Source: a bacterium
GTDB lineage: Bacteria > CAIWAD01
Direction: 5' to 3'
Assembly: GCA_030429345.1 (NCBI GenBank)
Contig: JAUIFJ010000018.1
Location: 23,286-87,285 of the forward strand
Length of the DNA stretch: 64,000 bases
In this document: positions 46,976 through 50,820 of the stretch, one piece after another
Numbering within the stretch: position 1 is the stretch's first letter
Layout: every line of letters begins with the position of its first letter
The notes under the pieces: generated by a model
Database searches by the model: none
What the model was told of the DNA's origin: nothing
Seen by the model: the letters and a program-made list of their open reading frames with translations, nothing else
Made by a program: the position numbers and the translations under genes

Positions 46976-47229
46976 CAGAGTTATCCCCGTTTGCGCCCCT
47001 TCGAAGGAGTCTGTGGCCTTCGCTCGGCCGCCCACTCGCGCCAGCCGGGTCGCAAAGCTGGACCAAGCCTCAAGCCCCTTCCTGCATGGGTTCCCCGGCC
47101 CGATCCCACCTGGTGCACCCTTCCGGGCACCGGGTCCTCCCGTGGGGAGCTTTCAGTCACTCGAGTCAACTTTCCTGTTCTGTAATCCGATAAATCGGAA
47201 AACGACAACTGGAAACAGAGGCACGACTC

Positions 47230-48573
47230 ATGACATTATGCACTTTCATCAAGGCCGGCCTGCTGGGAGGGATCCTGCTTGCTGCTGCCCCCCTGCAGGC
47301 GGATGACCTGGAGATCTACGGCTTCATGCAGGTCTCCGGATCCAGCCAGACATGGGATGAGGACTACGGCGCCTCCCTCGAAGCGGACGGCGCGCTTGTC
47401 GGCACATGGATCGATCATGCCCAGCAGGCCAACGCCATTGCCGGTTCGGAAATGTTCCCCTGGCAAGGCCTGGTCGGCCTGAAGGACAACACGCGCAACG
47501 ACATCAGCTTCAACCTGCAGCAGCTCAACGTGATCCTGAAGAAGCGCTTCAACCGGCAGTGGAGCAGCTTCGTCAATTTCGAAGTGGTCGAGAACTACAA
47601 GACCGACTATGCCCAGGAAAGCGAATGGGGCAGCTTCAGCGTGCAGGAGGCCTTCGTGCGCTACGCTCCCAGCGCCCGCTGGACCTTCAAGTTCGGCAAG
47701 TTCGTCCCGACCTTCGGCAACTTCTACGAGATCTACAACCGCACGCCGCTGCAGCCCTACCTCTTCCGCCCGCTGATCTTCGAGAAGAGCGTCGGCGGCA
47801 TCCTGCCTCCCGAAGACTACCTGCCCAATACGATGGCGGCCCAGGTCAGCGGGACGCTGCGTACCGGAATCGGCAAGCTGGACTATGCACTTTTCCTCGG
47901 CAACTCGGAGGAGTCCTACTTCGCCGAGAACGGCCGCAATGACACGGATGCCAAGTGCATTGGCGGCCGATTCGGCATTCGTCGCGGCCTGTTCAAGGCC
48001 GGCGTCTCGGGCAGCTACGACTACGATCGGCTCGACGCGCTCGACCTGGGCAATGACGTGGTCCTTGCAATCGACTACAAGGTGCCGCGCATGCGCTACG
48101 GTGTCGACTTCAGCGGAAGCGCTGGTCCCGTCAGCTTCGTCTGCGAGGGCATCTTCGTCGTATACGATCTCGACAGCGACCAGCAGGCCGTCGTCGATGC
48201 CTCCCATGCGGCAGGAACCTCGGCGGACAACACGCTGGACAAGAGCTTCTTCTACGCGCACCTGCAATACGATGCCGCAAAATGGTTCGTATACGGCGAC
48301 TATGACTTCGTCAACGACGGCATACAGCCATGGGGCAAGGATGGCGTCAACGCCCTGATCGGGGGTGGCGGCATTCGGCTGACCGACTCGATCACCTGGA
48401 AATTCCAGGTGGCGCAATACAGCTACGAGGTCAGCGTTCCGCACCCGCTCTTCGGCGCACCCGATCCCCTGGCCGCCCTGGGAGGGGACTTGACACCCGT
48501 CAACGCTCCTGCCGCCGGCGTCTACAAGGGGACTATACTTGATGTGCAGACCGGCATCAGCATCGCCTTCTAG
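47230..48573 (+). CDS. Outer membrane porin (OprP/OprO-like beta barrel)
   Basis: A 447-residue protein with signal peptide ILLAAAPLQA. The mature part alternates amphipathic strands with Gly/Asp turns. Examples are FNLQQLNVILKKRFNRQWSS, VNFEVVENYKTDY, EAFVRYAPSARWTFKFGKFV and VGISIAF-like, ending in an aromatic C-terminal residue (TGISIAF), as in outer membrane barrels. The FGKFVPTFGNFYEIYNRTPL segment resembles phosphate-selective porin families; the substrate is not proven. AGAGG precedes the ATG. It is the first gene of a set with a tiny phosphate-binding-like protein and a chemoreceptor. Confidence 0.8.
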   Translation: MTLCTFIKAGLLGGILLAAAPLQADDLEIYGFMQVSGSSQTWDEDYGASLEADGALVGTWIDHAQQANAIAGSEMFPWQGLVGLKDNTRNDISFNLQQLNVILKKRFNRQWSSFVNFEVVENYKTDYAQESEWGSFSVQEAFVRYAPSARWTFKFGKFVPTFGNFYEIYNRTPLQPYLFRPLIFEKSVGGILPPEDYLPNTMAAQVSGTLRTGIGKLDYALFLGNSEESYFAENGRNDTDAKCIGGRFGIRRGLFKAGVSGSYDYDRLDALDLGNDVVLAIDYKVPRMRYGVDFSGSAGPVSFVCEGIFVVYDLDSDQQAVVDASHAAGTSADNTLDKSFFYAHLQYDAAKWFVYGDYDFVNDGIQPWGKDGVNALIGGGGIRLTDSITWKFQVAQYSYEVSVPHPLFGAPDPLAALGGDLTPVNAPAAGVYKGTILDVQTGISIAF

Positions 48574-48583
48574 GAGTCATATC

Positions 48584-48994
48584 ATGAAATACACCCTGAC
48601 CCTCCTCGTCCTGGCCCTGATCGCCCTGCGTGCGACAGCAGGTGTTTCCGTGATCGCACATCCGGATGTAGACGCGGGCAGTGTAGACAAGATCACACTC
48701 GCGGACATCTACAGCCTCGACCTGCTGGCCCTTGGAGACAGCGACCTGATCGTCTTCGACCTGAGCGACGCCGACCCTGTGCGCGAGGGCTTCTATGCCG
48801 CCATCGGGAAGGAACACGACAAGATGAAGAAGCTCTGGCTCCGCGCCAAGCTTACCGGCAGCGGCGAACCGCCGACCGCCGTCGCCAGCCTGGAGGAAAT
48901 GGCCCGCGAGGTCGCGGCCACCCCGGGCGGCATCGGCTACGTGGATTCGGCCAGCGTGCCGAAGGGCGTGAAGGTCCTGGCCACTTTCGAGTAG
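48584..48994 (+). CDS. Small periplasmic phosphate-binding-like protein
   Basis: A 136-residue exported protein starting [20 protein letters not shown]. The mature part contains [46 protein letters not shown] and [20 protein letters not shown]. These are features of PstS-like (PBP_like_2) proteins: the first strand and helix with a phosphate loop region and the conserved TPGGIGYV segment. At about 115 mature residues it holds only one lobe or a reduced form, compared with 300 or more in PstS. AGGAG lies eight bases before the ATG at 48584. With the porin before and the chemoreceptor behind, a role in ligand capture and sensing is likely but not shown. Confidence 0.72.
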
Positions 48995-49056
48995 CACAGC
49001 GGCAGCGGCTCCCCCGGGGCCGCTCGGCTTCTCCCCCAAGCAAGGAAGCGCACGGA

Positions 49057-50820
49057 ATGACTTTGCAGACCAAGATCATGAGCGCCGTAACGACGATTGT
49101 CCTGCTCTCGGCGGCCTTCATCTACAACTACTTCCCGGCCCAGACCGAGAAGACCCTGCGCGAGAACTTCGATCGCAACACGGCCTTCCTCGCCGAGGCG
49201 ATCCACATGGCCGTCGACATTGCGATCACGGCACAGGAATATGACGCCATCGACAAGGCCTTCGAGTTCGCCTGGCGGAATCCCGCCACTCAGTACGTGG
49301 TGATTTTCGATGGCGGCGAGGTCTTCGTGGCACGCGATCGCGAGGGCCAGGCCTTCGAGTGGAACGCCGAAGCCGAGGAAGACCGCCGTGACCTGGTGAT
49401 CCGTCGCGGTCCCCTGAGCGAGGGCGGCATGCAGACCCTCGTCGCCAGTTCGACGGATCTGATCCAGGAGAGGATCGGCGCCGCCGAGCGATCGGCCCTG
49501 GTGCTGGCATTGGCCATGGTGCTCATCGGCATTGTCGCCTCCTGGGTGCTCGCGCGCCAGGTCAACACGCCGATCGGCCGGCTGGCCCGCGCGGCCACCG
49601 CTGTCGGGCAGGGCGACTTCAGCCAGAAGGTCGAGATCCGCAGCCGGGACGCCCTGGGCACCCTTTCGCGTGAGTTCGCCTCCATGTCGGAGCAGATCCA
49701 GGGCATCCTGGTCCAGCTCGAGGAAGAGAAAGCCACCGTCGAGCAGAAGGTGAAGGACGCCATCGCCGACGCCGAGCGCCAGAAGGCGGAGGCGATCCAC
49801 CAGAAGGAGCTGGCGCGCAAGATCGCCGACGAGGCCCAGGAAGCCCGCAGGCAGATCGAGCAGCAGGAAAGCTACCTGAGCTCGAGCGTGGACCGCATTC
49901 TCGGAGAAGTCGAGAAGTTCGGCCACGGCGACCTGCGGATGAGCCTGGCCAGCGACAGCGAGGACAGCGTGGGCCGGCTGATCCGCGGTTTCGGCAGCGC
50001 CAACGAGAACCTGCGCGAAGTCGTGAGACATCTGCTTTCCGTCTCGGGGAATGTGGGACATTCCAGCAGGGAGCTGGGAGAAGTCAGCACGCGTCTGGCC
50101 GAGAATGCCGATCTGAGCTCGACGCAGGCCACCAGCGCTTCGAGCGCCATCGAGGAAATCAACCAGAGCCTGCAGACGGTGTCCAATGCATCACGGGAGA
50201 TGACCGTCAGCATCCGCGAGATCTCCCAGAACGCGGCCAGGGCCTCCAGCGTGGCCAACCAGGCTGTGCAGGTCGCCGGCGAGACCGATTCCACAATCCG
50301 CAGCCTGGGCGAGAGCAGCAGCGAGATCGGCGAAGTGGTGCAGCTGATCCAGAACATCTCGGCGCAGACCAACCTGCTGGCGCTCAATGCGACCATCGAG
50401 GCCGCGCGCGCCGGCGAGGCCGGCAAAGGCTTCGCCGTCGTCGCCAACGAGGTCAAGGAACTGGCCAAGGAGACCGGCAAGGCCACCGAGTACATCACGG
50501 AGAAAGTGGCGCAGATCCAGTCGGGCACGGAACAGGCGGGCACCGCGATCTCGCGGATCAACGAGATCATCAGCAGCATCAACGAGATCCAGTCGAGCAT
50601 TGCCGCGGCCATCGAGGAACAGAGCGTGACGACCAGCGAGATCGTCAACAGCGTCGACCACGCTGCCCAGAGCTCGCGGAACATCGTTGCCAGCATCCAG
50701 GAACTGAGCGGCGTCACCGAACAGACCGTCACCTGGGCCGGCAACACGAGCCAGCTCTCCAGCGGACTCGAGCAGGTGACCAGCAGCCTGAAGCAGATCA
50801 CCGACCGCTTCCAGGTGTGA
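49057..50820 (+). CDS. Methyl-accepting chemotaxis protein
   Basis: A 587-residue transmembrane receptor. TM1 at about 7-25 ([19 protein letters not shown]), a short periplasmic domain at about 26-145, TM2 at about 148-166 ([21 protein letters not shown]), and a HAMP domain ([22 protein letters not shown]). A coiled coil rich in Glu/Lys and a second HAMP-like unit ([13 protein letters not shown]) precede the signalling domain. The kinase-control hairpin tip is [27 protein letters not shown] (about 425-455). No C-terminal NWETF-type pentapeptide for CheR/CheB is present. The periplasmic domain ([18 protein letters not shown]) is small and could contact the preceding binding protein. It is separated from that gene by 62 bp. 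Confidence 0.93.

Follow-up and report, generated by a model that had tools for sequence, protein, structure and literature searches.

In receptors that are activated by binding proteins, such as MBP-Tar, the binding protein has both lobes and binds a ligand; a transporter usually goes with it and, to our knowledge, a dedicated porin usually does not. Activation of this kind has been described for the SBP-sensor kinase pairs of Pseudomonas aeruginosa (PMC11113362). In the YfiBNR (TpbB) system of the same species, the periplasmic protein YfiR has the fold of one ABC binding protein lobe and represses the inner-membrane cyclase YfiN; sequestration of YfiR by the outer-membrane protein YfiB frees and thereby activates the cyclase (PMC4655355, PMC4887326). 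The locus analyzed here shares parts with both designs. Like the SBP-sensor kinase pairs, it encodes a periplasmic binding-protein fold beside a transmembrane receptor, on which such a protein may also act (PMC11113362), and like YfiBNR it combines an outer-membrane protein, a small one-lobe periplasmic protein and an inner-membrane receptor with a cytoplasmic output, with no transporter (PMC4655355, PMC2837407). However, the outer part of YfiBNR is an OmpA-like lipoprotein, its receptor is a GGDEF protein and its periplasmic part belongs to DUF4154/YfiR, whereas here we found a predicted 16-strand porin, interchangeable receptors and a periplasmic family related to PstS (PF12849). Because both the outer-membrane part and the lobe family differ, the module is an analog of YfiBNR and no member of it.

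In the window (the whole stretch of 64,000 nucleotides that was analyzed), three consecutive genes on the forward strand encode a porin of 447 aa with a signal peptide and a C-terminal phenylalanine (47230-48573), a secreted protein of 136 aa with an ATG start (48584-48994; hereafter the mini protein, or mini) and a chemoreceptor of 587 aa (49057-50820). Gene calls throughout this study were simple ORF calls, and the resulting gaps of 10 and 62 bp agree with those given by the sequence-only reading. Upstream of the trio lie recB-like and recD-like genes (judged from ORF translations), and downstream a convergent formiminotransferase-cyclodeaminase (FTCD) gene (identified with Pfam). A consensus scan revealed no promoter-like sites around the trio. 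It gave a single forward-strand terminator-like site, within the receptor gene, and such sites were no more numerous than in shuffled sequences. A single transcript for porin, mini and receptor is plausible from this layout. A perfect palindrome, CCGATAAATCGG (47187-47198), precedes the porin start by about 30 bp and has no second copy in the window, not even one with a single mismatch; its role as a candidate operator is speculative.

The receptor matches MCPsignal (E=1.2e-29) and HAMP (residues 164-215, E=9.7e-14) in Pfam, and a HAMP profile derived from this set of receptors revealed a second, divergent and weaker HAMP (residues 275-319). Its periplasmic loop of about 120 residues is flanked by two predicted transmembrane helices; with a membrane-flanked periplasmic domain, HAMP and an MCP signaling domain, the protein is a methyl-accepting chemotaxis protein, and its small periplasmic domain and double HAMP are as noted before. 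The periplasmic part matched no Pfam family at threshold and by eye resembles Cache domains. Seven MCP genes were found in the host, and a chemosensory pathway is therefore likely.

The mini protein carries a signal peptide, seen by inspection, which leaves about 117 mature residues. When searched alone, it had no match in Pfam, NCBIfam or PDB sequences; matches in these databases came from family profiles only. Nine relatives were found in a scan of GTDB genomes, and profiles from such relatives, then used to search genomes, recovered many more minis. PF12849 (PBP_like_2) was matched by 27 of 41 mature family members, and no member of the set matched DUF4154 at E<=0.1. Solved PstS proteins were also matched by the family profile, the best at E=4e-14, in the part of the sequence that makes up one lobe. 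An AlphaFold model based on a 35-sequence alignment is a compact domain (pLDDT 96.9, pTM 0.89). Compared by Foldseek and VIA-align, it superposes with residues 80-187 of PBP-1 from Clostridium perfringens (4q8r; Z 14.9, with an rmsd of 1.8 over 103 aa) and with residues 78-209 of Escherichia coli PstS (Z about 10). Solved YfiR structures were not among the 50 fold matches listed, which excludes nothing. Thus modeled, the mini appears to be one complete PstS lobe and no ragged fragment, in keeping with the earlier claim that a protein of this size cannot be a normal PstS. A stable single lobe is reasonable, since isolated halves of binding proteins are able to fold alone (PMC10601554). Conserved features of the family include an invariant Trp (residue 85 of the window mini), a W...F.G.G.PP segment whose F, G and P are near-invariant, and a GIGYV strand. 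In one genome, a second mini-like stretch with two stop codons lies directly behind an intact mini (G445:C1:2451452-2451685).

The window porin reached only 16.4 bits (E=0.0056) against Pfam Porin_O_P (PF07396), under the cut-off of 20.9. However, when the window porin and 34 mini-adjacent relatives were combined into one profile of 35 sequences, a PDB search gave Porin O at E=3.6e-10 and Porin P at E=7e-8. The AlphaFold model of the window porin has 16 long strands (pLDDT 78.9), and OprO (Z 27.0) and OprP (Z 26.6) lead its structural matches, with other porins at about 24. The protein is therefore predicted to be a 16-strand barrel nearest to OprO and OprP, which it resembles in both profile and fold matches. 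It differs from them in sequence (about 17% identity), in being encoded with a signaling receptor and in its acidity. The mature protein contains 32 K+R versus 52 D+E, a composition that does not favor an anion pore of the OprP kind, with the reservation that net charge tests this only weakly.

To measure recurrence, loci were picked by the mini profile alone, and the neighbors of 88 minis were compared with those of 136 control ORFs of similar size from the same loci. A same-strand porin-like ORF adjoined 78 minis and 8 control ORFs, a receptor next to either the mini or its porin was seen in 55 versus 10 cases, and both neighbors were present for 51 minis and a single control ORF. Fisher p-values were about 3e-39 (porin), 3e-19 (receptor) and 4e-25 (both), uncorrected for the relatedness of the loci, which are not phylogenetically independent. 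Beyond the proteins covered by Pfam and fold tests, porin-like calls were based on length and a C-terminal aromatic residue; many of 35 porins called by this rule matched porin or barrel families in Pfam, and the rule overlooks some others, such as those of L059 (Porin_4) and L050. The association of porin, mini and receptor is not due to chance.

Carriers in Pseudomonadota included Kushneria, Methylocaldum, Azonexus, Aquabacterium and Methylovorus in the GTDB scan, and Pseudoalteromonas, Alteromonas, Ideonella and Halomonas in a plasmid collection, where RefSeq labels the minis 'phosphate ABC transporter substrate-binding protein' or hypothetical. On two Alteromonas plasmids (L077 and L080), a mini-porin pair has type IV CRISPR csf genes and an N-6 DNA methylase as neighbors; the pair can thus travel on plasmids. 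Three further phyla were represented by genomes G149, G061 and G207. In the first, the mini was present in 48 of 299 sampled genomes (about one in six), often in several copies, and a few weak matches in carrier genomes were full-length PstS; the only genome examined of the second contains the triple with a kinase; and 12 of 19 genomes of the third have the mini. The window genome lies outside all three phyla, as it is related to these carriers at the level of domain only and its family and class contain few genomes. The sequence-only reading had made its proposal depend on the triple being found again elsewhere. The triple does recur, and the module occurs in at least four phyla, Pseudomonadota counted. 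The mini was absent from all four of the closest genomes of the window's own family and class, and its distribution is patchy.

Receptors beside the 55 minis were of several kinds: MCPs (25), GGDEF or GGDEF-EAL proteins (16), histidine kinases (12) and cyclases (2). The usual order was porin-mini-receptor with an MCP or kinase, and mini-porin-receptor with GGDEF-EAL. MCPs were found, for example, in a gammaproteobacterial MAG (L009), Aquabacterium (L011) and Ideonella, and GGDEF-EAL proteins in Kushneria and Methylocaldum; at L064 (5261-7033, reverse strand) the mini-adjacent receptor is a dCache-HAMP class III nucleotide cyclase, and genome G207 has two copies of the module, one with a histidine kinase and the other with an MCP. 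Several unusual arrangements were also observed. L045 (5461-8956) has a tandem mini-porin-mini-porin array followed by one GGDEF-EAL receptor, and at two Azonexus loci a small protein that by eye is CBS-domain-like follows the mini in place of the receptor (L007:5390-5866 and L008:6388-6843). At L055 (7801-10482, reverse strand), an MCP and a porin share one open frame, with no MCP stop before the signal peptide and likely ribosome-binding site of the porin, which could be either a sequencing error or a real overlap. Long frames in G526, G349 and G357 were considered as mini-receptor or mini-porin fusions and rejected, because the mini's own start and signal peptide end what is apparently a spurious upstream extension; no real fusion was found in the long frames read around minis.

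Comparison of individual loci revealed which parts stay together. The closest relatives of the window porin are those of L057, L058 and L047 (27-33% identity), and the minis of these loci are three of the closest six to the window mini (34-40%). Their receptors are all histidine kinases with a 4HB-type sensor, unlike the MCP of the window. Thus, porin and mini stayed paired while the receptor changed. Distances among porins and among minis were correlated (r=0.72 over 72 pairs, a value reached in 0 of 2000 permutations), which is expected for partners but is confounded by shared descent. The receptors contain sensor domains of unrelated types (4HB, Cache-like and dCache), which rules out a single sensor domain common to all of them. 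The porin-mini pair is the constant part, and the receptor, whether MCP, histidine kinase, GGDEF-EAL protein or class III cyclase, is interchangeable. The chemoreceptor that the sequence-only reading placed in a sensing triple is thus indeed present, but that picture was incomplete: it is one of several interchangeable kinds, and next to many porin-mini pairs a receptor is missing.

Our preferred reading, to which we give slightly better than even credence, is that the trio is an instance of a widespread trans-envelope signaling module in which the mini serves as a protein messenger between porin and receptor. It draws on the observed gene association and receptor swapping, on the loss of the phosphate loop described below, and on the predicted single-lobe fold and OprO/P-like barrel; the contacts, the stimulus and the direction of signaling would be as follows. 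The porin would bind or release the mini depending on pore occupancy, a ligand or the state of the envelope. The free (or loaded) mini would then dock on the periplasmic side of the inner-membrane receptor and switch its output, which would be the chemotaxis pathway in the host and, in other genomes, that of a kinase of the histidine type, an enzyme of c-di-GMP metabolism or a nucleotide cyclase. That the inner-membrane outputs vary while the outer-membrane and periplasmic pair stays constant argues for such signal transfer, for which YfiBNR offers a close functional parallel. On the other hand, several unrelated types of sensor domain are odd for a single docking partner, and the 33 minis with no receptor in the tested distance suggest that a receptor may be dispensable or work in trans.

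A different possibility is that a small anion or another solute enters through the porin and is bound by the lobe, which in its loaded form hands it to the receptor. The porin is OprO/P-like and the mini PstS-like, so that both descend from or resemble parts of phosphate uptake, and the two-lobed proteins of the SBP-sensor kinase pairs show that binding proteins can activate receptors (PMC11113362). The mini matches one lobe of PstS by sequence and fold. However, PstS also has a second lobe, a phosphate loop and the Pst transporter, whereas the mini has neither that lobe nor the loop and is adjoined by no Pst genes; in the predicted structure, the single lobe offers no two-lobe cleft. In PstS, phosphate is cradled by an SGT loop of the second lobe. 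In profile alignments, the loop motif was found in none of 72 minis, P or other residues occupy its columns in place of G, and SG[TS] occurs anywhere in the broad loop region in only four of them, whereas full-length PstS from four other genomes, aligned with the same profile, read SGT (SSGT, ASGT or NSGT). Phosphate sensing by the mini is thus unsupported. No ABC transporter gene adjoins the trio among the neighboring genes checked, and the whole host genome (G000), although 98% complete, contains no PF12849 match. Together with the acidity of the window porin, these observations make the relay of a captured ligand rather unlikely. The sequence-only reading had proposed an outer-to-inner-membrane sensing chain without uptake. 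A recurring module without a transporter stands, and so does the statement that no ABC transporter is encoded, as far as the genes beside the trio are concerned; PstS-style ligand capture, with phosphate or arsenate as the ligand, is not supported, since the partner lobe is missing and the phosphate loop is absent from all minis examined.

It is also conceivable, but quite unlikely in our view, that the mini is an accessory of the porin (an assembly factor or a periplasmic gate) and that the neighboring receptor directly senses a solute admitted by the porin. Porin and mini are the constant part of the module, and for 33 of 88 minis no receptor lay within the tested distance. Genome G149 contains five minis (L048, L049, L052, L053 and L060), four of them with a porin-like neighbor and none with an adjacent receptor; for these, receptors in trans are possible. 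The role of a mere accessory would leave the enrichment of receptors beside minis, the frequent order porin-mini-receptor and the wide range of outputs to be accounted for. Finally, that the mini is a decayed, functionless PstS fragment beside unrelated genes, as its short length, its lack of a Pfam match when searched alone and its absence from the four closest genomes might suggest, is very improbable and already contradicted by the conservation data, as the family, kept in at least four phyla, has an invariant Trp besides near-invariant residues, a confident compact predicted fold and consistent gene neighbors.

No published description of a porin-mini-receptor module was found in the open-access literature. 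In G. bemidjiensis, a phosphate-selective porin lies beside a sensor-kinase pair, and the relevant passages of the Geobacter genome papers mention no half-PstS. Tentatively, and with a confidence just short of even, we propose that the module represents an undescribed and widespread class of trans-envelope receptor, in which the porin would be the sensor and an orphaned PstS lobe would carry the signal to the paired receptor, so that one front end could feed chemotaxis, transcription, c-di-GMP or cyclic nucleotide outputs. The presence of the mini in about one in six sampled genomes of the phylum of G149 indicates that the module is common and can be tested in cultured strains, and the interchangeable receptors provide a natural set of outputs reading the same input. 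If true, this proposal would explain many genes now annotated as components of phosphate transport, and would show in general terms how cells sense what happens at their outer membrane.
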